Shown in pieces: positions 17,108 through 63,978 of a stretch of DNA of 64,000 bases. The notes under the pieces were generated by a model. The model had not been told where the DNA came from. It did no database searches and was given only the letters and a program-made list of their open reading frames with translations. Position 1 is the first letter of the stretch. The number at the start of each line of letters is the position of its first letter. A program made the position numbers and the translations under genes. Source of the stretch: Nitrospinaceae bacterium (GTDB lineage: Bacteria > Nitrospinota > Nitrospinia > Nitrospinales > Nitrospinaceae); the NCBI GenBank assembly GCA_029261395.1, contig JAJDBJ010000067.1:62001-126000 (forward strand), read 5' to 3'.

Positions 17108-17590
17108 TTATCGTTTAACAAATTGAGTGTTGATGTATTTCACAACATCCCAGATTTGCTTGTCTTTTAGCATTTTTCCATGCGCCATCATGCCGGTGCC
17201 TTTGGAGCCATTTTTGATGATCCAGAACATCTGGCCCGGTGAAACGCTTTTCATGGTGGTGGAACAGGTAAAGTTCCGGGGCTGTGGTTTCAGGGCTTTG
17301 CCCAGCTTGCCTGCGCCATTGCCTTCACTGCCATGACACATTTTGCAGGCCATGGGCTTGGCGCTTTTTTCAAAGATATTCTTGCCTGCTTCCACACTTG
17401 CACTGGCAGGAATACTGGCTTTGACTAAATTGGCCGGCGCAGATTTTGTTTTTCTGGGTTGTGGGCAAGTCCCTTTATCTCCGGCCCAGGCCGAACTGGA
17501 GAAGCCGAAGCTTGCCAGTGCCAGTACCATAAACAAAGCCACTATCTTTGTTTCGTATCCTCTAGCCGGGTTTACTTTTTTGGAAGTCAT
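17108..17590 (-). CDS. Monoheme class I cytochrome c
   Basis: The 160 aa protein has an N-terminal hydrophobic signal (residues ~15-36, SSSAWAG) and one heme c site, CKMCH (Cys82, Cys85, His86). The downstream PQPRNFT segment and Met residues near WIIKNGSKGTGMMAHG could give the axial ligand. It is a periplasmic electron carrier. It is first in the operon, followed by the cupredoxin-like gene. A Pro/Lys/Ala-rich linker of ~30 residues separates the signal from the heme domain, longer than in most small cytochromes c. Confidence 0.9.
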   Translation of the reverse strand: MTSKKVNPARGYETKIVALFMVLALASFGFSSSAWAGDKGTCPQPRKTKSAPANLVKASIPASASVEAGKNIFEKSAKPMACKMCHGSEGNGAGKLGKALKPQPRNFTCSTTMKSVSPGQMFWIIKNGSKGTGMMAHGKMLKDKQIWDVVKYINTQFVKR

Positions 17591-18644: not shown

Positions 18645-18986
18645 ATGAAATTTAGAATGCGGGTTTTCAGTTTGACGGTCTTCGTTGCGACCGGTTTGTT
18701 GTGGAGTGGCGTGACGATGCAGGCGTATGGCGATATCGGAAACATCATTTTCAAGGATACTAAAAGTTTCGCACCGGTGGTATTCAGTCACAAAAGTCAC
18801 AAATCGGCGGGCGCGGGTTGTGCCGATTGCCATGATGTCCTGTTCAAGAAACAACAGGGAAGTACGGATAAGGGCAACGCTCTGACTATGAAAGCCCTGC
18901 GGGGTGGGAAATACTGCGGATCCTGTCACAACGGCGAAAAGGCATTCTCCGCCAGTAAAAACTGTAAACAGTGCCATAGTAAATAA
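18645..18986 (+). CDS. Triheme cytochrome c7-type periplasmic protein
   Basis: The 113 aa protein has a signal peptide (hydrophobic 8-24, TMQAYG) and three c-heme motifs at Cys59-His63, Cys91-His95 and Cys107-His111. An FSHKSH motif supplies distal His ligands. Spacing and size fit the cytochrome c7/triheme family (PpcA-like), which shuttles electrons across the periplasm in extracellular electron transfer. The ATG at 18645 follows AAGGGGG. It is next to, but divergent in direction from, the porin-cytochrome genes, and could supply their periplasmic carrier. Confidence 0.88.
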   Translation: MKFRMRVFSLTVFVATGLLWSGVTMQAYGDIGNIIFKDTKSFAPVVFSHKSHKSAGAGCADCHDVLFKKQQGSTDKGNALTMKALRGGKYCGSCHNGEKAFSASKNCKQCHSK

Positions 18987-18990
18987 ACAT

Positions 18991-19359
18991 ATGAAAAACA
19001 AATCATATCTCATAGGCTTTTGTGGTTTGCTACTTTTGTTATCCGCCTGTTCTTCGGATCTTTGCGGGAGCACGGTAATTAATGAGTCCGTATCTCCAGG
19101 CCAAAAATATATAGCTACGGTATATGAGTGGGATTGCGGTGCAACGACCTCTTTTAATCGGGTCGTCAATATCCGCTCTACTGGCTCGGATTTCGATGGC
19201 GGGGATCAGGGTGATTGGGTCTATTCTTTAGAGGGTCAACTGGATGTGAATGTTATGTGGCTAAGTAAAGATGAGTTGAAAGTTTTTTATCCGGCAGGGA
19301 CGAACCCTCATGCGCAAACGACTTGGCATGATGTCCGTATTTCATTTCAAAAACGATAG
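18991..19359 (+). CDS. Small lipoprotein of unknown function
   Basis: The 122 aa lipoprotein has a lipobox LLSAC at ~16-20, and the mature part carries four Cys (including DLCGS and EWDCGATTS) and beta-strand patterns. Small lipoproteins with the SPxxKYIATVYEWDCGATT motif recur in many bacteria, but the function is not known. The ATG at 18991 starts 5 bp after the cytochrome c7 stop, so the two are cotranscribed. Its stop is 7 bp from the convergent mtrB-like stop. Confidence 0.75.
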   Translation: MKNKSYLIGFCGLLLLLSACSSDLCGSTVINESVSPGQKYIATVYEWDCGATTSFNRVVNIRSTGSDFDGGDQGDWVYSLEGQLDVNVMWLSKDELKVFYPAGTNPHAQTTWHDVRISFQKR

Positions 19360-19366
19360 ACACAGT

Positions 19367-21523
19367 TTATTTTTTGGATGCTGCTATCCGGTAGGTGAAA
19401 AACACCATCGCGGTGTGAACATCGTAGTCGGGCACGGTGCCGAACAGGGTCAACACTTCGGGAATCGCAGTCGAGCCGGGATTGACGGGATCTGTTGCAA
19501 AGTCGTCGATTTCAAAATTCTGATACATATACCTCATGCTGACATCCACATGATCGCTCCATCGGTACCGCCCGGTGAGCCGCGCGTTGTGGGTGCGGGT
19601 TTTCAGCTTGGGCATGTCGTTCGCTCCAAGCAGATTGGCTCCCGTCGTAAATGTAATATTCTCCACGCTGTCGGAAAACCAGTAATCCGCACTCAGTTTC
19701 ACCCGGTTTTCAGCGAACTGGTGAGAAACCCCCGTACCGACTGTATGCGCGTTGTTGTCATGGTTGGCAATCCAGTTATTGTCGGGATCAGTGGAGAGCG
19801 CGAAACCGCTGTTCCGATTGAGTTGTTCCGTGTCGATTTTTTCATAGGTGTAATAGATGTTGACCGTCGTGGCATCGGAGGGGGTGTACATCCAGTCGAA
19901 GGTGACGTCGTGACGCTGGCTGTTCTGCAATCCCAGTTGAGAGGTGTCGTAATCGTCGTAGACAAAATTATAATAAACCCCGTAAGTCGTGCGGTCGGTG
20001 GGGCTGAAGTTGATATTGGCGGCATGTTTCATCTGTTCGCGCTCGGAGATATCATAACGCTTCATCGATGGATGTGTTGTGTTTCCAGTAGTACCGAACC
20101 GGGCAAAATTAATTTTAGACTCATCATAAGGATCGATTTCTTCCCTGACTCCCAGTGTCAGCGTATAACCAAAATTCACATTTTTAAAATAACTGGAACG
20201 GACCCCGGCGGTGACGGTGTTCTCCTTGGTTTCATCCACGGACCGTAAATCGCGCTTGCGGTGGTCGAATTTGTAACCGAGCTTGAACGTCGTGCCTTTG
20301 AACGCGTAATAAGACGCCGTGGCGTTCACCTGGTTTTGCGTCATGTCGAATGGCAGGTTGCTCACCGGGCCGACCTGGGCATTTAAGACGTCATCATTGC
20401 GAATGTAATTAAATCCCTGCACGGGAGTGTCGTTGATCGTCTGGTAATGCCGGAAGCGCAGGTTCAGGGCCAGTTTGGGAAGTGGACGGGACGACAGGTT
20501 GACCGTTCCGTGAATCGTCTGGATTTGCGCGTCCGCCTGCAGACGGGGTAACAGGGCGGTCGTGGTCCCGACAGAGAAGGGAAGCAACGATTCGTTTTGC
20601 TCCATGATCCCATATTGAAAAACAGAGGAAATGCGCGTCGTGTCCGTAATATTATAAGCTCCACTTAACCCGATTTTCCAGGAATGGTTGTCCGGGTCCC
20701 GTGAAATCAAGTTGGTTGGCGACTGGGAATCAGAAGTTCCCGAGTTGTCGAACGGGTTTTGCCAGATCAACGAATCGAACGAGTTGTTGAACAGGGAATA
20801 ATCAAACGAGAGCTGGATTTGCCCCTGGTCTCCACTACGGGACAAATCGGCATGGACTTCGTGTGCTACCTGCTTTATCGGGTCCGGGAGAATGACACTT
20901 CGAATTTGAGTTGGGCTACCACTGTCCCCTGAGGCGCCTCCCATGGATTGCGTGCCTTCCCGCTCGGTTCTTTTATAGGACATGTCCAGATTGAATTTGC
21001 CGAAGGTGGATTTGAATCCAAACAAACCGGTGTCCCTCTCATTTTTCAGATCGGTCTGCCGGTTGATCAGAGTCAGGTTGGAAGTCAAGCTTCCTGTAGC
21101 AAACCCCGGGTTCAGGACCAGGTTGGTACTGCCAGGGTTTTGGAATTGGGTCTGGGTTCTTTCGTTCAGCAAGTGCGGGATTTGGTTGTAATCGGCATAG
21201 ACGGTGAATCTTCCGGTTTTACCGGTTTCCCAGTAGATACTCCGGTTGTCGAGTCCGAGATCCTCGGTGAAGAGGTTCATGAAGTAGGAGCCGCGGTTGT
21301 AAGTCAGGTTGGAGGAGCCGATGACATATCCGGTGTCGCCTTCGATCCCGGTGTATTCGCCGAACTTGAAAGATTCACTGGTGGTGAGCACGGAGGCCCC
21401 ACCCAAGGTAACCTCTCCCTCCAAGCCTTCCGGCATCAGGGCCGCATCCTCATCCTCCTCTGCCCAGACACCGGCGGGCAACACCGCCAGCAGAAGTAGT
21501 ATTATAAATAATCTCCGTATCAT
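19367..21523 (-). CDS. MtrB/PioB-family outer-membrane beta-barrel porin
   Basis: The 718 aa protein starts with a signal peptide (LLLLAVLPAGVWAEE). The rest is beta-strand rich, with alternating aromatic and polar residues, charged turns (such as DFDRxxP-type loops) and a C-terminal strand VFFTYRIAASKK. Its length and the decaheme partner 52 bp upstream match the MtrB/PioB family, which sheathes a decaheme cytochrome through the outer membrane. It is the last gene of the operon after the 11-heme and decaheme genes. The N-terminal CXXC of some MtrB proteins is absent. Confidence 0.87.
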   Translation of the reverse strand: MIRRLFIILLLLAVLPAGVWAEEDEDAALMPEGLEGEVTLGGASVLTTSESFKFGEYTGIEGDTGYVIGSSNLTYNRGSYFMNLFTEDLGLDNRSIYWETGKTGRFTVYADYNQIPHLLNERTQTQFQNPGSTNLVLNPGFATGSLTSNLTLINRQTDLKNERDTGLFGFKSTFGKFNLDMSYKRTEREGTQSMGGASGDSGSPTQIRSVILPDPIKQVAHEVHADLSRSGDQGQIQLSFDYSLFNNSFDSLIWQNPFDNSGTSDSQSPTNLISRDPDNHSWKIGLSGAYNITDTTRISSVFQYGIMEQNESLLPFSVGTTTALLPRLQADAQIQTIHGTVNLSSRPLPKLALNLRFRHYQTINDTPVQGFNYIRNDDVLNAQVGPVSNLPFDMTQNQVNATASYYAFKGTTFKLGYKFDHRKRDLRSVDETKENTVTAGVRSSYFKNVNFGYTLTLGVREEIDPYDESKINFARFGTTGNTTHPSMKRYDISEREQMKHAANINFSPTDRTTYGVYYNFVYDDYDTSQLGLQNSQRHDVTFDWMYTPSDATTVNIYYTYEKIDTEQLNRNSGFALSTDPDNNWIANHDNNAHTVGTGVSHQFAENRVKLSADYWFSDSVENITFTTGANLLGANDMPKLKTRTHNARLTGRYRWSDHVDVSMRYMYQNFEIDDFATDPVNPGSTAIPEVLTLFGTVPDYDVHTAMVFFTYRIAASKK

Positions 21524-21575
21524 TTCCGATCACTCCCCTCTGATCCAATGAACGTGAACTTCATATTCCGCCGGT

Positions 21576-22511
21576 TCACCGGGTAAACCGGGTTCCCGAT
21601 GGATGGTTCGAGCCATGAATCCGGCTGTGACAATTCAAGCACGCTTTACCCAGTAAATCCCGCGGTGTGCTCCCTTGATCGAACAGAGAGCTGGGATGAA
21701 ACGTGTTGGAATGGCACGCCTGGCACAGGTACGGTGGTTTCATCTTGAGCATCGATAGATGGTTCGAGCCATGTGAATCGTGACAGGTACTGCAATCCTC
21801 TCGAACCGGCGCGTGTTCCCACAGCATTGGTCCACGTTTTTCCTGATGGCAGATGTAGCAGGTTTCGTTGATGGTGGCCGCCTTCAGTAAATTGGGCGCC
21901 AGACTGCCGTGCGGGTTGTGACAACTGGAACAATCCATCTTGCCTTCACGCAAAGGCATATGGGCCGATCGCAACATGCGCGCCCGCTTGTCTTTATGGC
22001 AGGCGAAGCAGGCCTTTTTGGAGTCCTCGTTGATGGATAGCCGGCGTTTGCTTTTCCGCGCCATCACGTAATGACATTTATCACAGGACACGTTGGCTAT
22101 CTCATGTGTGCTACCGCGCCAGTGCAGGGTGACTTGTTTCTCGTGGCATTGCTGGCAGATTTGATTTTTCTGTTGTGGCGTGATGGTTTTGAATGAAATG
22201 GTGGTGGACTGTTTTTTGTCGAAATCCGGTTCCGCAAGGTGGGCGCTCGTCGGGCCGTGGCAGGATTCGCAGGATTCCGCAAGGGACTTTCCTAACGCCT
22301 TTTTGAAATACAGGGCGTGCTTGGTCCGGGCGAAGGATTTGATGTAGTCTTCGTGGCAATCGAGGCAGTTTTTTATGGAGCCGGATGAGGTGGCTGTTTT
22401 CAGGCTGGGATTGATCTTGCCCCAATCCACTTTAGGGCCTGCCTGGACGGGGCTGGCGCAAATCCAAAGTGCCGCAGAAAACATTGCCAGCGCAGAAATA
22501 GCTTTAAACAT
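21576..22511 (-). CDS. Decaheme cytochrome c, DmsE/MtrA/PioA-like
   Basis: The 311 aa exported protein has a signal peptide (MFKAISALAMF, cleaved near ASPVQAG) and exactly ten CXXCH motifs spread evenly to the C-terminus (from CLDCH to CLNCH). Ten hemes in about 300 residues is the size of MtrA, PioA and DmsE, which form a heme wire inside an MtrB-type barrel. The ATG at 22511 has an exceptional ribosome site, AGGAGGGGGAGG. It is the middle gene of the three-gene conduit operon. Confidence 0.93.
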   Translation of the reverse strand: MFKAISALAMFSAALWICASPVQAGPKVDWGKINPSLKTATSSGSIKNCLDCHEDYIKSFARTKHALYFKKALGKSLAESCESCHGPTSAHLAEPDFDKKQSTTISFKTITPQQKNQICQQCHEKQVTLHWRGSTHEIANVSCDKCHYVMARKSKRRLSINEDSKKACFACHKDKRARMLRSAHMPLREGKMDCSSCHNPHGSLAPNLLKAATINETCYICHQEKRGPMLWEHAPVREDCSTCHDSHGSNHLSMLKMKPPYLCQACHSNTFHPSSLFDQGSTPRDLLGKACLNCHSRIHGSNHPSGTRFTR

Positions 22512-22610
22512 AGACCTCCCCCTCCTAGTAAAAGTCTTCTGTATCTTTAAAGATATTAAAAATTCGAATTTATTCCAAAGCTTTTGGAGATTATACGAAT
22601 TTTCCGACAA

Positions 22611-23495
22611 CTATCCACTGGTAAAGGTCCGCAGAGAATATTTTTTATGGCATTGCGAGCACAGGACGGAGGCCTTCTTTTTGCTGATGCGCCATTGATG
22701 CGGGGTGTGGCAGGTGGTGCATTCATTCCCTAAAGCTTTGATATGAATGGGATGCTTGCCGCGCTGCAGGGCACCCTGATGGCATTGTGCGCAAGAAGTT
22801 TTTGCCTCTTTTTTGGGATTGTGCACCTGATGGCAGTCGTTGCACTCAAACGGTTGATGGGCTCTCGACGCGTTTGCCGGTTGCGCCAGAGGCGATTTGT
22901 CCTGATGGCACTCGATGCATTCTTTATTGCCGGGCATTAACCGGCCAGTCCGGAAGTTATGGCAGTTGGTGCAGGCCATGTCCTTCATTTTTGGGACCAT
23001 GTTTTTCGCGTTGGCATGGCAGTTCATGCAGAACTTTTGCTCGGGCTCGAACTTGTGCAGTTCGACGGCGTGGCAGGAGGTGCACTCGATGTTTTCTTTG
23101 AACCAGTGCAGGGAATGACCCTTGGAGCGTGAGATTTTGGCGGCTCCATTTTTCTCCGCCAGGTGGCAGGTCACACACATGGTGCTGGGTACGATAATCT
23201 TCTCGTGTGGCCGTTCCGACATCTGGGTCGGGCGTTCCACGATGGTTTTAACAAACATCATATTTTTTTCGTACAGGGTCGCATAGTGACAGGTATGGCA
23301 GTTGACGTCCTTGTGCACGCTGGTCTCCCAGCTATGATGCGCCTCTTTCATAAGGTGACAGCTCAGGCAGAACTCGGGATTGTTCTCGGTGTAGTCGTAC
23401 AAATGCAGGGAACCGATCCCAATGACAACCACCAGCAGTCCGGCCAGTAGGCTGATGATGATTTTGAATTTTTTGATGCCACCGTTGCTGAACAT
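22611..23495 (-). CDS. Membrane-anchored 11-heme cytochrome, NapC/NirT type N-terminus
   Basis: The 294 aa protein has one N-terminal transmembrane anchor (IIISLLAGLLVVVIGIGSL) followed by eleven CXXCH motifs. The first four (CLSCH, CHTCH, CVTCH, CTSCH) match the tetraheme NapC/NirT/CymA quinol dehydrogenase, and seven extra hemes are added C-terminally. It would take electrons from quinol (or deliver them) and pass them to the decaheme protein. The ATG at 23495 is preferred over a TTG at 23516, though neither site is strong. It is the first gene of the conduit operon. Confidence 0.9.
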   Translation of the reverse strand: MFSNGGIKKFKIIISLLAGLLVVVIGIGSLHLYDYTENNPEFCLSCHLMKEAHHSWETSVHKDVNCHTCHYATLYEKNMMFVKTIVERPTQMSERPHEKIIVPSTMCVTCHLAEKNGAAKISRSKGHSLHWFKENIECTSCHAVELHKFEPEQKFCMNCHANAKNMVPKMKDMACTNCHNFRTGRLMPGNKECIECHQDKSPLAQPANASRAHQPFECNDCHQVHNPKKEAKTSCAQCHQGALQRGKHPIHIKALGNECTTCHTPHQWRISKKKASVLCSQCHKKYSLRTFTSG

Positions 23496-23692
23496 TATAG
23501 TCGGATCCGGAATCAAACGTGTTTTTACGGAAAAAATCCGCCTTTAATATATACTCCCGGGCCGTTCATCACCACCCAAAAATATTCCCGGTCCCCGCGC
23601 GGGTCCCGATTGAAGGAATAAAATGGGTGCCCCACTGTTCTTTAATGTACAGGTGCTAAGAATAGAGAAAAGTTTTTGAGGGGGTGTTTATC

Positions 23693-23995
23693 ATGCAAAC
23701 CTACTTGATTATGGGGAAATTTACAGAGAAGGGCATCACCAATATCAAGCAGACCACGGAACGGGCGGACAAGTTCAAGGAAATCGCCGCCAAATTTGGT
23801 ATCAAAGTCCTCCAGATATACTGGCTCATCGGCAAATACGATGTGGTCAATATCGTGGAAGCGCCGGATGACCAGGCCTTAGAAGCCTTGCTGGTTCGTG
23901 TCGGCGCGTGGGGGAATGTCCGTACCACCACTTTCCGGGCGTTTGATAAAAAGGAAATGGATGCTATCCTTTCCAAGATGGACGATACGATCTGA
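23693..23995 (+). CDS. GYD-domain protein
   Basis: The 100 aa cytoplasmic protein belongs to the GYD family (small dimeric alpha-beta proteins, named for the conserved Gly-Tyr-Asp; here GKYDVVNIVEAPDD). No enzymatic activity is established for the family. The ATG at 23693 follows GAGGGGG. Its 3' end is duplicated: the last ~20 codons recur after htrA (25269-25333) with mostly synonymous changes. It is divergent from the 11-heme gene. Confidence 0.9.
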   Translation: MQTYLIMGKFTEKGITNIKQTTERADKFKEIAAKFGIKVLQIYWLIGKYDVVNIVEAPDDQALEALLVRVGAWGNVRTTTFRAFDKKEMDAILSKMDDTI

Positions 23996-24122: not shown

Positions 24123-24164
24123 TCGGTTTTTAACGATTATCCCAATTTTTTTTTGAGGTTGAAA

Positions 24165-25268
24165 GTGAAGCATCATAAAACCTTCATCCTGGGTACGATA
24201 ATTTTATTGTTGCTAGGCAACACAGATTGCCCAGGCGCGACCGAATCGTCCGCCTCAAAACCAACCGGTTTTGGGATACTGGAGGCCTCACCATTCACCA
24301 AGTTATTCAAAACCCTGGCCGAAAAAGCCAACCCAGCTGTGGTCAATATCCAATCAATGAAAAAGGTCACTCGTTTTTACGGAGATTTTCATTGGGGTAT
24401 GCTGGGGGTTCCTCAAATGCCGCTTTCCGAGGAATATAAACAACTGGGGCAGGGGTCTGGGTTCATCATAGAAAAGCAGGGATTGATTTTAACCTCAGCC
24501 CATGTTGTGGCGGGGGCCGATTACACCCAGGTAATGCTCTATGATGGAACCATGTACAAAGGCAAGTTGATAGGGATAGACTCGCTGACGGATATTGCAC
24601 TCCTCAAAATTGAGACTCCGTCCGATTTGTCCGTGCTCCCTCTCGGGCACTCCAAGCAGTTGGAGACGGGTGAATGGGTTATGGCCATCGGCTCACCCTT
24701 GGGATTGAATAAGACGGTAACGGTCGGAATTGTGAGCGCTAAAGACCGCTTTATTGGCGATAACCCTTACAGCGGTTATATTCAGGTGGATGCCGCCATC
24801 AATCCGGGCAACAGCGGAGGTCCACTCCTCAACATACAGGGAGAAGTCGTAGGCATCAATGCAGCTATCGTTTCCCAGGGACAGGGATTAGGGCTTTCCA
24901 TCCCCATTGATAGGGTTAAATTATTACTGCCGCAACTCAAGGAAAAAGGAAGGGTGATCCGCAGTTGGCTGGGAGTGATCGTTCGCAATATAAACCTGGT
25001 GGCAAAAGAATCACTGAAACTTAATAACAATCAGGGCTCTTGGGTGGTCCATATCCTGGCGAACAGTCCTGCAGAAGAGGCGGGAATCCAGCGGAATGAC
25101 GTGGTTATTGAATTTGATGGTCATCCGGTACAAAGTTCCCACGAGTTTCCCAACCTGATTGCCCACTCTCCGGCAGACCAAAAGATTCCAATTAAACTGA
25201 TACGGGGAGACACCACTCTTGATTTATTCGTCATTTTAAGAGAAATTCCCAAAGAAGGGCTACGATAA
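24165..25268 (+). CDS. HtrA/DegP-family periplasmic serine protease
   Basis: The 367 aa protein has an N-terminal hydrophobic segment (ILGTIILLLLG), then a trypsin-like domain with an intact triad: His113 in TSAHVVAG, Asp143 in LTDIALL and Ser217 in GNSGGPL. One C-terminal PDZ domain follows (~residues 265-360). One PDZ makes it DegS-like in architecture. The GTG at 24165 follows TTGAGGTTG. The coding region is exactly bracketed by ~190 bp direct repeats, the right copy beginning one base after its stop codon, so it was inserted between the GYD gene and its original neighbour. Confidence 0.92.
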   Translation: MKHHKTFILGTIILLLLGNTDCPGATESSASKPTGFGILEASPFTKLFKTLAEKANPAVVNIQSMKKVTRFYGDFHWGMLGVPQMPLSEEYKQLGQGSGFIIEKQGLILTSAHVVAGADYTQVMLYDGTMYKGKLIGIDSLTDIALLKIETPSDLSVLPLGHSKQLETGEWVMAIGSPLGLNKTVTVGIVSAKDRFIGDNPYSGYIQVDAAINPGNSGGPLLNIQGEVVGINAAIVSQGQGLGLSIPIDRVKLLLPQLKEKGRVIRSWLGVIVRNINLVAKESLKLNNNQGSWVVHILANSPAEEAGIQRNDVVIEFDGHPVQSSHEFPNLIAHSPADQKIPIKLIRGDTTLDLFVILREIPKEGLR

Positions 25269-25333
25269 CTTTCAGGGCGTTTGATAAAAAGGAAATGGAT
25301 GCTATTATTTCCAAGATGGACGATACGATTTGA
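25269..25333 (+). pseudogene. 3' remnant of a GYD-domain gene
   Basis: The last ~20 codons of a GYD gene, in frame to TGA at 25331-25333: the translation reads TFRAFDKKEMDAIISKMDDT and then Ile. Compared with the intact gene the differences are CGG/AGG, ATC/ATT, CTT/ATT and ATC/ATT; only Leu-to-Ile changes the protein. The change pattern suggests that this copy came from a gene that was still functional when it diverged. Confidence 0.88.
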
Positions 25334-25460
25334 TTCGTCCCGAGTCTCTGATAACCCATAAGAAGGGCACACAACTTATGGTTCTAAAAATGTTCCGGGT
25401 GTGGCTCGTCGGTTTGTGTATGGGAGGGGTCTGTTTGGCTCCGGTCACGGTAGGGGGGCA
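25269..25460. repeat. Direct repeat, copy B (GYD remnant + intact cytochrome start)
   Basis: Begins directly after the htrA stop codon and matches 23931-24122. It contains a GYD 3' remnant and the authentic 5' end of the cytochrome gene. Confidence 0.9.
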
Positions 25461-26565
25461 GGGGACCGGTTCAGCTCCAGACATTTCCGGCATCCATTTA
25501 AATACCAAGGGTTTCTCCTCCAGCCGACAGTGCGGCCAATGTCACAAGGAACTTTATAACGATTGGAAACGCAGTCTGCATGCCGACGCTTCCAGCAACG
25601 CGGTATTCAAGGCGGCGTACATGCAGGTTTATTTTGAGCATGGCGAGCGCGCCCGCCCCGCCTGCCTGACCTGCCACGCTCCCGTCGCCTATTTCAACAA
25701 CGATCCCAAACTCACACAAGCCATCAGCCGTGAAGGGGTCAACTGCGACTTCTGCCACTCAATTGCGGAAGCTCTTCCCGGCACGCCGGAAGGCCCCCAG
25801 TTTCGGTTCGAATTCGGCGGCGTCAAACAGGGGCCACTAAAAAATTCAAAAAGCCCTGCCCATCAAACCCGGTTCAACGATCTGTACCAACAGTCCCTGT
25901 TTTGCAAAGGGTGCCACGAGCAGAAAGGCTCAAGCGGTCTTCCAATAATAGCCACCTGGTCGGAATGGAAAGAAAGTCCCTACCCGGACAAAGGGATCAC
26001 CTGTCAGAAATGCCATATGGAACAGGTTTCGGGAAAGACGGCACCCACGTCAGTCCAAAAAAACGCGCGTCACCAGATTAGCAATCATGATATCGCCGCC
26101 GGACATTCGCTGACCAAACGGCGTCAGGCTCTGGAAATAAAAATTGCGGCTATCAAAACTCACAAGAACCGGATTCAGGTCCAGGTAGATCTGACGAATA
26201 CCGGAGCGGGGCATAAAATGCCCACCGGCCTGCCGGTCAAAAAAATCATTCTGGAAGTCACAGTTAAGGATGCCAATAGCGGCCATCGGCAAAGTCGACG
26301 ACGGGTGTATCAGAAAATTGTTGCCGATGCGCAAGGCAAAGCCGTAACGAAGGTGGTGGACCTGATGCTGGGCAAAGGAACAAAAATATTGTCGGATAAC
26401 CGGATCGCACCTTTGGAAACCCGGCACGAATCGTTCACTTTCTTTGTCGATCAACCGGAAGAGCAAACGGTCACCGCCACCGCGTATTACAGCTACTCTC
26501 CGGAGATTCTGCAACCCGCTCCCATCCATATCAAGTTGAACGAGGTGCAACACCGTGTCCGATGA
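25378..26565 (+). CDS. Exported pentaheme cytochrome c, c554-like
   Basis: The 395 aa protein has a signal peptide (VWLVGLCMGGVCLAPVTVGGQG). Its heme domain carries five CXXCH motifs between residues ~45 and ~210 (CGQCH, CLTCH, CDFCH, CKGCH, CQKCH), with the order and spacing of cytochrome c554-type multihemes. The last ~150 residues have no heme and look like an Ig-like beta domain. The ATG at 25378 follows AAGGGC. Its stop overlaps the Rieske start, so it is the first gene of a b6/Rieske operon. It could take electrons from the complex in the periplasm. Confidence 0.88.
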   Translation: MVLKMFRVWLVGLCMGGVCLAPVTVGGQGTGSAPDISGIHLNTKGFSSSRQCGQCHKELYNDWKRSLHADASSNAVFKAAYMQVYFEHGERARPACLTCHAPVAYFNNDPKLTQAISREGVNCDFCHSIAEALPGTPEGPQFRFEFGGVKQGPLKNSKSPAHQTRFNDLYQQSLFCKGCHEQKGSSGLPIIATWSEWKESPYPDKGITCQKCHMEQVSGKTAPTSVQKNARHQISNHDIAAGHSLTKRRQALEIKIAAIKTHKNRIQVQVDLTNTGAGHKMPTGLPVKKIILEVTVKDANSGHRQSRRRVYQKIVADAQGKAVTKVVDLMLGKGTKILSDNRIAPLETRHESFTFFVDQPEEQTVTATAYYSYSPEILQPAPIHIKLNEVQHRVR

Positions 26566-27010
26566 ACTTCAGGTGGATGAGAAAACAATACCCGTGGATA
26601 CCAACCGCCGGGGGTTTTTGCAGTGGACACTCGGCGGATTGTTGTTCGGCGGATTCGTGGTCGCGGGCAACGTGGTTCTGCGCTACCTGATGCCACCGCC
26701 ATCCCGGCTGGAGAAGGCGGGGAAGGTTTCCATTCCCGTTTCACAAATTCCCAAAGGTTCCAGTCTCATGCTCAAGCATCAGGGATCGCCGGTACTGGCG
26801 GTGCATACCGAGCAGGGGATAACCGCTTTTTCTGCGGTGTGCACGCATCTGGGGTGCCTGGTGAAGTGGGTGCCGGCGGACAAGATTTTCTATTGCCCCT
26901 GCCACGCAGGGAAGTTCGATGTCACAGGCAAGGTGTTGGCCGGTCCGCCGCCGGAGCCCCTGCATCCCGTCAAATTTGAAATCGTTGACGACAATATTAT
27001 TTTTCTCTGA
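26555..27010 (+). CDS. Rieske 2Fe-2S protein of a cytochrome bc complex
   Basis: The 151 aa protein has an N-terminal Tat-like anchor (RRGFLQWTLGG, then a transmembrane stretch). The C-terminal Rieske fold has both cluster-ligand boxes, CTHLGC and CPCHAGKFD. The GTG at 26555 overlaps the cytochrome stop by 11 bp. It is 8 bp upstream of the cytochrome b gene. It accepts electrons from quinol at the Qo site and passes them to a c-type cytochrome. Confidence 0.95.
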   Translation: MSDELQVDEKTIPVDTNRRGFLQWTLGGLLFGGFVVAGNVVLRYLMPPPSRLEKAGKVSIPVSQIPKGSSLMLKHQGSPVLAVHTEQGITAFSAVCTHLGCLVKWVPADKIFYCPCHAGKFDVTGKVLAGPPPEPLHPVKFEIVDDNIIFL

Positions 27011-27018
27011 GTCCACTC

Positions 27019-27717
27019 ATGTTCAGCTGGTTGAACGACCTCATAAACCGATTCATTGACTGGGTCCATTACCGGACCGGCATCAAGGATATCGTCAAGG
27101 AGCAGATCACCGAGTACCGGGTGCCGCCCAAGCTCAACAAATGGTATTCGCTGGGAGGGCTGAGCCTGTTCATTTTCGGTTTGCAGTTGGTGACCGGCGT
27201 ACTTCTGTTGGTCTATTACGTGCCGTCCACCGACTCGGCGTTTGCCAGCATCCAGCGCATCATGCTGGAGATTCCCTACGGCTGGCTGGTCCGCCTGTCG
27301 CACGCAGCAGGGTCGCATATGATGGTGGTCATCATCATGCTCCACATGGTCAGCGTTATTTTCATGGGCTCCTATAAGAAACCGAGGGAGATGACCTGGT
27401 TGTCCGGTTGCGCCCTGATCACTCTGACTCTGGCGGTCTGTTTCACTGGTTACCTACTTCCCTGGAGCCAGTTGTCGTACTGGGCGACGACCATAGCCAC
27501 CAGCATTCCGGAGCCCATTCCGGTGATCGGTCCGTTTCTGGTGAAACTGGTGCGCGGCGGCGACCAGATCAATCCCGATACGTTGAACCGGTTTTTTGCT
27601 CTGCATGTCATTGTGATTCCCGCAGTGATGCTGGCGCTGGTGGGGTTTCATTTATTTCTGGTGCGGGTGCTGGGGATTTCGGGCTCGCGGGATTCGAAAC
27701 CGGAGGATCAGCGATGA
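27019..27717 (+). CDS. petB: Cytochrome b6-type subunit
   Basis: The 232 aa, four-helix protein binds two b hemes. The His pairs have b6-type spacing: H-x13-H in helix B (HAAGSHMMVVIIMLH) and H-x14-H in helix D (HVIVIPAVMLALVGFH). In plastid and Bacillus b6 the helix A motif YCLGG carries the Cys that binds heme ci. Here it reads YSLGG, so covalent heme ci is not expected. Its stop overlaps the subunit IV start. Confidence 0.95.
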   Translation: MFSWLNDLINRFIDWVHYRTGIKDIVKEQITEYRVPPKLNKWYSLGGLSLFIFGLQLVTGVLLLVYYVPSTDSAFASIQRIMLEIPYGWLVRLSHAAGSHMMVVIIMLHMVSVIFMGSYKKPREMTWLSGCALITLTLAVCFTGYLLPWSQLSYWATTIATSIPEPIPVIGPFLVKLVRGGDQINPDTLNRFFALHVIVIPAVMLALVGFHLFLVRVLGISGSRDSKPEDQR

Positions 27718-28124
27718 CCATGTTCCAGAAACCCAAATTACCCAAAGGCATGCGTTTCCCCACGTTCATAATGGAAGACGTGCTGGTTATTTTTATTTTC
27801 ATGGCCGTGTTCTGCGGCGTGGTGTTTTTCTTTCCGCAACTCATCGTGTTCGGCGATGCCGAGGTACCGGCGGACCCGTTCAACACGCCGGAGCACATCA
27901 AACCGGAATGGTACTTTCTGGCGTCCTATCAGTTCCTTAAAATCATTCCGTCGGAATTCGGTGCGTTGATTCTGATGTCGGTAGCGGCTTTGCTGTTCGT
28001 GTTTCTTCCGTTTATCGACCGGAGCAAGGAAAACAATATTTTAAAACGACCGGTTTTTCTGACATTGGTTTTGGTTTGTATTATCGGGTTTGTCGGGCTG
28101 ACAGTATGGGGCTATCTTTCGTGA
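27714..28124 (+). CDS. petD: Cytochrome b6/f-type subunit IV
   Basis: The 136 aa, three-helix protein corresponds to the C-terminal half of cytochrome b. It contains the Qo-site motif PEWYFL and the YQFLKIIPSEFG segment. It starts at the ATGA overlap with the cytochrome b6 gene, so b6 and subunit IV are split as in b6f complexes, not fused as in bc1. Confidence 0.93.
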   Translation: MTMFQKPKLPKGMRFPTFIMEDVLVIFIFMAVFCGVVFFFPQLIVFGDAEVPADPFNTPEHIKPEWYFLASYQFLKIIPSEFGALILMSVAALLFVFLPFIDRSKENNILKRPVFLTLVLVCIIGFVGLTVWGYLS

Positions 28125-28137
28125 CGGTGAAAGAAGA

Positions 28138-28971
28138 ATGAAAAAATATTCTCGGATTGAAATTTTAAGAATCGGTGCGCTGTTGTTTGGTTTGGCGATG
28201 GTGTGTATGCGTCCGGGGACCGTCGCGGCGGCGTTTGAGGAGCCGTTGAAAAACTCCTGCATCGCCTGCCATAAGGATTTGCCGGATGAACGGTTGAGTC
28301 GCCCGGTGAAACTCTGGTCCGGTAGCGTACATGCAGAAGTGGGTAATACCTGCGACGGATGTCACGGTGGCGATCCCAACGACCCTACCCTGAAGGCCAT
28401 GTCCGAGGGCAATCGGTTTTACCGTCGACCCAAGGAAGAAGAGGTTACCGGATTCTGCGGCAAGTGCCATCAGGAATTATCGGAATATTTCAAGCAAAGC
28501 GCACATTGGGCCACGGGCACGCAGAATTGTATTCAATGTCATGGGACCCATGCAATTCAACGCATCAGCCTCGAGATCATCAACCCGGAAAAATGTAGCG
28601 CCTGCCATGATTATGAATCGCCGGACAAACTTAAGATGGTGCTATCGACTTTGCACAACCGGTTCGGCGTTTCCCAAGAGAAAATCAAAAGCATTCAGGG
28701 CCTACCCATCCAGCCACTGGCGGATAAGCTGGGCAACGTGTGGAACCAACTGCGGCAGGTGCGGATGGTCTCTCACACGTTTGATATGACCCGTGTCAAA
28801 AAGAAGGCCGAAGAGGTGCAGGCCCTGATGACAACGGTGGAGTCCGAGATCGCCCGCCTGGAAGGAATCGAGCAGGAAAGAAAACTGCTCGGGTGGGGCC
28901 TGATTGCCCTGTTCAGCGCGCTGGCTATCGCAACCTGGAGGTATAACCGTACGGAAAAAGATTCCGAATAA
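28138..28971 (+). CDS. Membrane-anchored pentaheme cytochrome c of the b6/Rieske operon
   Basis: The 277 aa protein has an export signal (ALLFGLAMVCM) and five CXXCH motifs between residues ~40 and ~160 (CIACH, CDGCH, CGKCH, CIQCH, CSACH). A helical region of ~80 residues follows, and a C-terminal transmembrane helix (LLGWGLIALFSALAIATW) ends in a basic cytoplasmic tail. It takes the place that cytochrome f or c1 has in standard complexes. It follows subunit IV by 13 bp. Confidence 0.88.
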   Translation: MKKYSRIEILRIGALLFGLAMVCMRPGTVAAAFEEPLKNSCIACHKDLPDERLSRPVKLWSGSVHAEVGNTCDGCHGGDPNDPTLKAMSEGNRFYRRPKEEEVTGFCGKCHQELSEYFKQSAHWATGTQNCIQCHGTHAIQRISLEIINPEKCSACHDYESPDKLKMVLSTLHNRFGVSQEKIKSIQGLPIQPLADKLGNVWNQLRQVRMVSHTFDMTRVKKKAEEVQALMTTVESEIARLEGIEQERKLLGWGLIALFSALAIATWRYNRTEKDSE

Positions 28972-62863: not shown

Positions 62864-63304
62864 CTACAGGGCCTCGCATTGGCACAACTCGCGGATATAG
62901 CTCACGAGAGAGTGAATGGTATTGTCGTCCAGAGTGTGTCCCCAGCTGGGCATGCAGGGCGCGCGCCCAACCGCCAGCCCGCCTTGCTGAATGGCGGTGA
63001 ACAAATGTTCGTCGGTGCGGGTTTCCAGATAATCCGCCTTGGTGTGGTCGCGCGGCGGAACGGTCAGATGCGATGCGTTGATGCCTTTACCATGTCCATC
63101 GGTGCCATGACATTGGGCGCAGTAAAACTGGTACGTCTCGCGGGTTTCCTGGGTGACTGGATGCGCGCGAGGGGCTGGTGAAGGTGTGGAGGGGGCCGCC
63201 GCAGATGGAGAAGGCGAGGGCTTTTTCTCCGCCGGGTCCTGGCCGCAACCAATGAGTATTGCCATCATCGCAATTGCTCCGATTAAACTTAAAGCACGGT
63301 TCAT
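62864..63304 (-). CDS. Lipoprotein monoheme cytochrome c
   Basis: The 146 aa protein has a lipobox ILIGC (Cys20), a ~30 residue Pro/Ser/Ala linker, and one heme motif CAQCH (Cys62-His66) in a cytochrome c class I domain (YCAQCHGTDGHGKG). A PSWGHTLDD region contains a likely axial Met nearby (PCMPSWG). It is tethered to the membrane in the periplasm. Its start overlaps the diheme gene stop by 4 bp, so they are one operon and may form a small electron-transfer pair. Confidence 0.92.
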   Translation of the reverse strand: MNRALSLIGAIAMMAILIGCGQDPAEKKPSPSPSAAAPSTPSPAPRAHPVTQETRETYQFYCAQCHGTDGHGKGINASHLTVPPRDHTKADYLETRTDEHLFTAIQQGGLAVGRAPCMPSWGHTLDDNTIHSLVSYIRELCQCEAL

Positions 63305-63978
63305 TTGCTTTTAGAATCCTTTTTGTGCGACATGATGTATTGAGTCATCTTCCGCAGGGTTTCTTCGTCAAACGTGTAAAGCGGCATTCTTCCCCGGGTG
63401 GTGAATTGCCTGGGATTTTTCAGCCATTGGTAAACCCATTCGGGACGCAGTCGACGGCCGGCGTCGATCAGCGAAGGACCGGAAACTCCACCCCGCGGTT
63501 GGCGGGCCAGGTTGTAACTCTGGTGGCAGGCGATGCAACTGTAGTCCCGCTCAAATAAAATTTTCACCCGTACGCGCTTGCCTTTGGACAAGGCCGGTAA
63601 TTCTAGAGGCGGAGCATCCTTCAGGATTTTTAGAGACATCAAATGATCGGTCATCTGCTGAGCCTCTTTCGGGTTTAAGACGGGATGGGGGCCGGTGTAT
63701 TGTGGTGTGCCTTTTGAAAATCCTGGATCGCGCGTGTGTCCTGCCAGTCGGATCACTTCAGGCTGTTTCAGGAAATTCCCAAGCCAATCCTTTTGAAACT
63801 TGTCGCCGGCGAAAAATAAATCGGGGGCGGATTTCTCTGATTCGGTTTTAGAGAATCGGTGACAGGTGTCGCATTGTTTTTCTTTCACCAGAGCGGGGGA
63901 TGCCTCGACTCCGCCACTCCACCCTCCGGCGATCAGCAGGAACAATCCGATCAGGAAATAGTTTTTAGGGAGTATCAT
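63301..63978 (-). CDS. Exported diheme cytochrome c
   Basis: The 225 aa protein has a signal peptide (FLIGLFLLIAGGWSGGVEAS) and two class I-type heme domains: CDTCH (residues 36-40) and CIACH (~149-153). A Met-containing GRMPLYTF segment supplies an axial ligand for the second. It is upstream of the lipoprotein cytochrome. It starts 22 bp from the window edge, so the rest of the operon may lie beyond it. Confidence 0.92.
   Translation of the reverse strand: MILPKNYFLIGLFLLIAGGWSGGVEASPALVKEKQCDTCHRFSKTESEKSAPDLFFAGDKFQKDWLGNFLKQPEVIRLAGHTRDPGFSKGTPQYTGPHPVLNPKEAQQMTDHLMSLKILKDAPPLELPALSKGKRVRVKILFERDYSCIACHQSYNLARQPRGGVSGPSLIDAGRRLRPEWVYQWLKNPRQFTTRGRMPLYTFDEETLRKMTQYIMSHKKDSKSK

Follow-up and report, generated by a model that had tools for sequence, protein, structure and literature searches.

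The window analysed here is a 64,000-nucleotide stretch of a 142-kb contig from the genome of a Nitrospinaceae bacterium (G000), a metagenome-assembled genome (MAG) of 2.94 Mb that is 97% complete and is divided into 84 contigs. It contains a cluster of genes for an outer-membrane porin and three multiheme cytochromes which a preliminary description of the window had interpreted as a porin-cytochrome conduit of the MtrAB/PioAB type, and this identification is supported by the family models, the matches to solved structures and the predicted barrel set out below. The gene positions given in that description stand, and its counts of the heme-binding motif CXXCH were reproduced on recounting (11 in the inner-membrane cytochrome, 10 in the decaheme protein and 3 in cytochrome c7, with none in the porin), but it ended the system at 23.5 kb and thereby overlooked a divergent operon (25330-28971, plus strand), which is conserved together with the conduit and encodes a Rieske/cytochrome b complex along with its two pentaheme cytochromes. 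The features are collected in Table 1.

Table 1. Features of the conduit cluster, the divergent operon and the nitrite oxidoreductase gene fragments of the host genome
Feature	Coordinates	Strand	Evidence and remarks
Triheme cytochrome c7, signal peptide, likely periplasmic shuttle	18645..18986	+	Starts at ATG 18645; exceeds the cut-offs of PF14522 and TIGR04257
MtrB/PioB outer-membrane porin, 26-strand barrel (predicted)	19367..21523	-	PF11854, TIGR03509, PDB 6r2q_B, structural model, Foldseek
Decaheme cytochrome, MtrA/MtoA/DmsE family, 311 amino acids	21576..22511	-	TIGR03508, 6r2q_A
11-heme inner-membrane cytochrome	22611..23492	-	PF03264; match to NrfH 2j7a; alignment
Small GYD-domain protein between the divergent operons	23684..23995	+	PF08734, 97.6 bits; same place in G020 and G022
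HtrA/DegQ-type periplasmic protease	24153..25268	+	PF13365, PF13180; beside the pentaheme c5 gene in G003, near it in G062
Pentaheme cytochrome (c5), c554-like, first gene of the operon	25330..26565	+	PF13435; class-wide search
Rieske iron-sulfur protein	26555..27010	+	PF00355
Cytochrome b, b6-type N-terminal half	27019..27717	+	PF00033, 192 bits
Probable subunit IV-like C-terminal half of cytochrome b	27714..28124	+	Open frame; homologues behind cytochrome b in L021, L112, L115 and L116
Membrane-anchored pentaheme cytochrome, C-terminal helix, last gene of the operon	28138..28971	+	Five CXXCH; PF14522, PF14537
nxrA 5' ends	L066, L067 (G000:C43 and C9), bases 1-513/564		Broken at contig starts

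The conduit and its probable inner-membrane partners

The scores of the cluster proteins against curated profiles exclude chance similarity. The porin scores 388.4 bits against the Pfam family MtrB_PioB (PF11854; cut-off 23) and 309.5 bits against TIGR03509 (cut-off 240.05), the decaheme protein scores 250.6 bits against TIGR03508, which represents the DmsE family (cut-off 192.2), and c7 scores 75 bits against the triheme model TIGR04257 (cut-off 40). When compared with all PDB sequences, the decaheme protein finds its best match in Shewanella MtrA (6R2Q chain A, 2e-59), with which it agrees in length and motifs, the CXXCH motifs being aligned along the chain; the best match of the porin is Shewanella MtrB (6R2Q chain B), at 6e-39 and at 1.4e-76 when a profile of ten sequences is used. 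An AlphaFold model of the porin contains 26 long strands (mean predicted local distance difference test score, pLDDT, 65.5; predicted template modelling score 0.57), and a Foldseek search with this model returns 6r2q_B first, with an E-value of 6.9e-31, followed by TonB-dependent receptors at 1.1e-8. The possibility, raised in the preliminary description, that a profile search would show the porin to be unrelated to MtrB/PioB can therefore be set aside. The porin and decaheme genes are separated by 52 bp, as computed from the open reading frame coordinates. The likely start of the decaheme gene is the ATG at 22511, downstream of a strong ribosome-binding site, AGGAGGGGGAGG, and the start of the 11-heme gene was placed at its second in-frame ATG.

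The 11-heme protein has an uncleaved N-terminal helix, recognizable in the sequence, and a first domain resembling NapC and NrfH, which is followed by a further multiheme part. It scores 31.3 bits against the NapC/NirT N-terminal family PF03264 (cut-off 24.1) and 45 bits against the NrfH model TIGR03153, far under the cut-off of 134, and its N-terminal part matches the NrfH structure 2j7a at 1.3e-5; a PHROGs scan of the protein gave no match. It shares with NapC, NirT and NrfH the N-terminal helix, the first hemes and the CXXCHXM motif at heme 1, but departs from the tetraheme (NapC, CymA, NrfH) and pentaheme architectures of these proteins by its extension from 4 to 11 hemes. On two Nitrospirae contigs an 11- or 12-heme gene (36% identity) lies directly behind a pentaheme gene resembling the last gene of the operon in the window. 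One of these contigs (L034, 1-1799) also carries, divergent from the pentaheme/12-heme pair, genes for a likely barrel of 406 amino acids and for a cytochrome with at least five hemes that is cut by the contig end, which together are possibly another kind of port.

The arrangement of the divergent operon and the conduit can be followed through related genomes. The conduit cluster is found in two other MAGs of the genus at 75-83% identity (65-74% for c7), and in one of the related genomes (G007) the entire order is kept: Kef-type antiporter, membrane-anchored pentaheme, subunit IV, cytochrome b, Rieske protein, pentaheme, 11-heme protein, decaheme, porin and c7. The same order is present in G005, split over two contigs, while a small contig of G003 keeps the part from HtrA through pentaheme and Rieske protein to cytochrome b, and a c7 homologue lies near MtrAB in G023. 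Since the host genome is a fragmented MAG in 84 contigs, the cluster might in principle have been produced by chimeric assembly or contamination; the length of the contig and the recurrence of the gene order in other MAGs of the genus, among them contigs named as Nitrospinaceae (isolate Ww603, 83% identity to the 11-heme gene) and Nitrospinota (isolate 8_1_Oct_SF_Bin69, 79%), which are the closest named contigs to that gene, refute this explanation and leave it a vanishingly small probability. The host has a second Rieske/cytochrome b operon on contig C29 (L044, 5365-10309), which includes an octaheme membrane subunit of 893 amino acids and probably encodes the main complex III, and the presence of this second set suggests that the complex encoded in the window has a dedicated role.

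Proposed exchange of outer-membrane ports on a shared inner module

Of the 61 genomes available for the order, 11 contain an MtrB-family match, which exceeds the cut-off in 9. In the class, 8 of 77 genomes have the 11-heme gene; three of these belong to this genus, two to another family (G020 and G022) and three to the distant family f9. This gene is thus ruled out as a fixed partner of MtrAB, because it is present without an MtrB match in G020 and G022; it is also present in f9, where MtrB was not searched. The pentaheme c5 accompanies the 11-heme gene wherever the latter occurs: a close or distant homologue is present in all eight genomes with that gene and in 4 of the 69 others (nominal Fisher p = 2e-8, computed without regard to kinship; the count of distant matches omits the three weakest, with E near 1e-22, and one at 1e-31). 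Among MtrAB-bearing Nitrospinota that lack the 11-heme gene, several have a gene for a small secreted protein in front of the decaheme gene (L018, 8370-8840; L019, 8147-8605; L026, 8421-8867). In L019 and L026 this protein belongs to the Pfam family DUF4399, and it is not part of the cluster in the window.

G020 and G022 likewise carry this operon together with the 11-heme gene (52-53% identity). There the neighbour of the 11-heme gene, in the place of the decaheme and porin genes, encodes a 418-amino-acid candidate monoheme cytochrome-porin, with its single heme near the N-terminus (ALSQWARKYKVDCSTCHFAFPRV or its PRL variant) and a C-terminal Phe. According to the published consensus, Cyc2 proteins are at least 365 amino acids long and have a CXXCH that is preceded by AXPXFAR[Q/K][T/Y] and followed by PXL (PMC8406198). 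The match of the 418-residue proteins to this consensus is close but not exact, and they are therefore designated Cyc2-like, with a putative barrel. In a third family, G062 carries a distant operon (36-44% identity) with the order HtrA, pentaheme, Rieske protein, cytochrome b and nine-heme protein; behind it, in the same orientation, comes a Cyc2 gene with AVPAFARQMKMPCKSCHFQHFPKL, which bears the PXFARQ and PXL parts of the motif. In G075, a member of f9, a small regulator-like gene and a TauE-type transporter gene occupy the 1.2 kb between the 11-heme gene and a Cyc2-like gene, and in G027 and G018 c7 adjoins a Cyc2-like gene just as it adjoins MtrAB in the window. A profile search for Cyc2-like genes found none in the host genome or in seven others of the genus, while the same profile finds one in 33 of the 77 genomes of the class. 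The simplest reading of these gene arrangements would be that this genus uses MtrAB, on a common inner module, in the position that Cyc2-type iron-oxidase ports take elsewhere.

In G076 the Cyc2-like gene is broken into two frames of 52 and 385 amino acids (L119, 291-1579), by a frameshift or an assembly error. Within the order, MtrB and Cyc2-like genes show a weak tendency to exclude each other (p = 0.05 among the good genomes, 0.18 when all are counted), which is not relied on.

Host metabolism and the direction of electron flow

The host had been described as a probable chemolithotroph, and its gene content bears this out. The genome encodes ATP-citrate lyase and a fused cbb3-type oxidase, and it contains two 5' ends of nxrA, of 171 codons each and identical in sequence, which are cut at contig ends and are 96-97% identical to the full NxrA of G007, where NxrB comes next. 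An early search that returned only NuoG-like and Fdh-like molybdoenzymes had suggested that the host is not a nitrite oxidiser, a conclusion overturned by these two truncated ends, which are a duplicated nxr collapsed by the assembler; surveys of presence and absence in such MAGs would wrongly score nitrite oxidoreductase (NXR) as absent. The nxrA fragments, the lyase and the oxidase together identify the host as a nitrite-oxidising chemolithoautotroph, which probably fixes carbon by the reverse tricarboxylic acid (TCA) cycle.

On balance, the locus probably encodes a trans-envelope electron-uptake chain, for which we infer inward flow, an extracellular donor and each of the hand-overs. In this chain the outer membrane would be spanned by the decaheme MtrA homologue inside the MtrB barrel, so that electrons from the donor, most likely Fe(II) in dissolved or mineral form, would pass through the decaheme to the periplasmic triheme c7. 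From c7 one branch would lead to the 11-heme NapC/NrfH-type membrane cytochrome, exchanging electrons with quinone, and the other to the Rieske/cytochrome b complex by way of its two pentahemes. This complex could run in reverse, lifting electrons to quinone for the production of NADH and for the reverse TCA cycle, and part of the electrons may reach the cbb3-type oxidase and oxygen. Sideroxydans provides a precedent for such a fork, with one low-potential branch leading to quinone and one high-potential branch leading to the oxidase (PMC13390432). Uptake, from Fe(II) or a similar donor, is favoured by the occurrence of MtrAB in the slot of Cyc2, and the character of the host, an aerobic autotroph able to use electrons that are taken up, is counted on the same side.

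Several observations weigh against this interpretation. MtrAB alone leaves the direction of flow unfixed, since Shewanella exports electrons with it, and proteins of the NapC/NrfH type usually oxidise quinol. The AlphaFold model of the 11-heme protein, with a pLDDT of 37, is unusable, and at the loci examined outside the genus other Nitrospinota carry the decaheme and the porin without an 11-heme gene. The port proteins of G020 and G022 depart from the Cyc2 consensus, with S for P and W for F, and the function of Cyc2 outside its cluster 1 has been called uncertain (PMC8406198).

In the principal alternative, electrons would flow outward under anoxia, as in Shewanella, from quinol through the 11-heme protein and the conduit to an extracellular acceptor such as Fe(III) or Mn(IV) oxides. 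In its favour, quinol oxidation is the normal activity of NapC/NrfH-type proteins, the best solved relatives of the conduit are the Shewanella MtrAB proteins, and large multiheme cytochromes partly resembling ExtM are encoded just past the window. This alternative is nevertheless judged unlikely, because a terminal reductase of the MtrC/OmcA type, whose absence the preliminary description had already remarked on, was found neither in the cluster nor, by a search with TIGR03507, in the 97%-complete host genome, whereas the mtrCAB set of Photobacterium, the one named relative obtained from the PLSDB plasmid collection, has an adjacent 730-amino-acid decaheme with a lipobox. The Cyc2-type ports that hold the slot in other families, and a host that oxidises nitrite aerobically and encodes ATP-citrate lyase, likewise argue against export. 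The Photobacterium set lies on a 2.1 Mb replicon of Photobacterium sp. DA100 (L122, 1726-6911) and has no gene annotation in the PLSDB table.

A second alternative accepts the conduit and replaces iron by another partner, so that the electron donor would be Mn(II), another cell or an extracellular redox enzyme, for instance a giant multicopper oxidase. The host does encode a multicopper oxidase of 1666 amino acids that is partly MnxG-like, and the manganese-oxidising Ca. Manganitrophus has been proposed to use Cyc2 together with porin-cytochrome complexes (PMC9040806). The oxidase gene is, however, on another contig (C24), its product scores 102 bits where the cut-off is 3100, and nothing was found that links it to the conduit, so that a partner of this kind appears improbable. 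Fe(II) uptake remains the preferred interpretation.

Other redox proteins of the host may be recorded here. The multicopper oxidase gene lies at a contig end (L046, 2156-10563) beside genes for a triheme class I cytochrome and a 650-amino-acid protein with a domain resembling ethylbenzene dehydrogenase and NXR gamma subunits. To the right of the window (L051, G000:C67:126000-130751) are genes for a 10-heme protein of 890 amino acids and an 11-heme protein of 690 amino acids, which partly resemble Geobacter ExtM (199 and 274 bits, under the cut-off of 800) and in neither of which a lipobox was seen. Two further cytochromes, one diheme and one monoheme, adjoin this cluster at the right edge of the window (62864-63978). 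A cytochrome bd-like oxidase subunit is encoded with three proteins bearing class I type hemes on contig C17 (L047, 2714-8857). An N-terminal CPQxRxT pattern is shared by monoheme cytochromes in the window (17108-17590), in L048 (6453-6947) and in L053 (5199-5666), the first of which has a weak match to the Leptospirillum cytochrome 579 model (52 bits; cut-off 280).

Relation to known systems and significance

The comparison of the conduit with known systems separates shared from distinct components. PioA has a long N-terminal extension, and the Pio operon includes PioC, a high-potential iron-sulfur protein; the decaheme in the window is 311 amino acids long. The preliminary description had further likened the pair to DmsEF; this likeness is weak because no DmsA-like enzyme was found in the cluster or in the host genome, in which the molybdoenzyme matches are two NuoG-like proteins, one FdhF/YdeP-like protein and the two nxrA ends. 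Shewanella MtrAB (PDB 6R2Q) is alike in having a decaheme and a 26-strand porin encoded by adjacent genes, with aligned CXXCH motifs, but the window differs from the MtrCAB system in its lack of MtrC/OmcA, in its 11-heme partner in place of the tetraheme CymA, and in the adjacent Rieske/cytochrome b complex. The Sideroxydans system of MtoAB, ImoA, MtoD and PmcA (PMC13390432) is similar in combining a conduit without a surface decaheme, a small periplasmic cytochrome and the NapC-type ImoA in the same pathway order; in the window the shuttle is a triheme c7 rather than a monoheme, the NapC-type protein has 11 hemes rather than 4, and a bc-type complex with pentaheme subunits is adjacent. Cyc2, a fused cytochrome-porin (PMC8406198), is alike in its genomic slot, which in further families of Nitrospinota adjoins this module or a relative of it, and in its proposed role as an entry port, but it has one heme in a single fused protein and is not homologous to MtrAB.

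An MtrAB-type conduit in Nitrospinota is not new, since four Nitrospinota MAGs are reported to carry MtoA (PMC11442690) and three Nitrospinaceae MAGs to carry MtoAB (PMC11995701); these subsea-tunnel organisms are of the same phylum and, by annotation, have the same conduit family, and the papers report presence only. For the inner module, the 11-heme NapC-type protein and the exchange of ports with Cyc2, no description was found in the open-access literature.

Nitrospinota may possess a modular uptake machine in which a Rieske/cytochrome b complex, two pentaheme cytochromes and the 11-heme protein serve interchangeable ports, MtrAB in one lineage and Cyc2-type proteins in others, giving access to a second, extracellular source of lithotrophic electrons such as iron minerals; this generalization is offered tentatively, as somewhat short of an even chance. 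The bc-type complex and the 11-heme cytochrome are candidates for the missing link to the quinone pool, and the port swap is a natural experiment on how two unrelated entry ports for iron oxidation, MtrAB and Cyc2, connect to the same inner-membrane machinery. If the interpretation is correct, some nitrite-oxidising Nitrospinota would not be confined to nitrite and could feed on iron in groundwater or sediment, and the nitrogen and iron cycles would be coupled in one cell.

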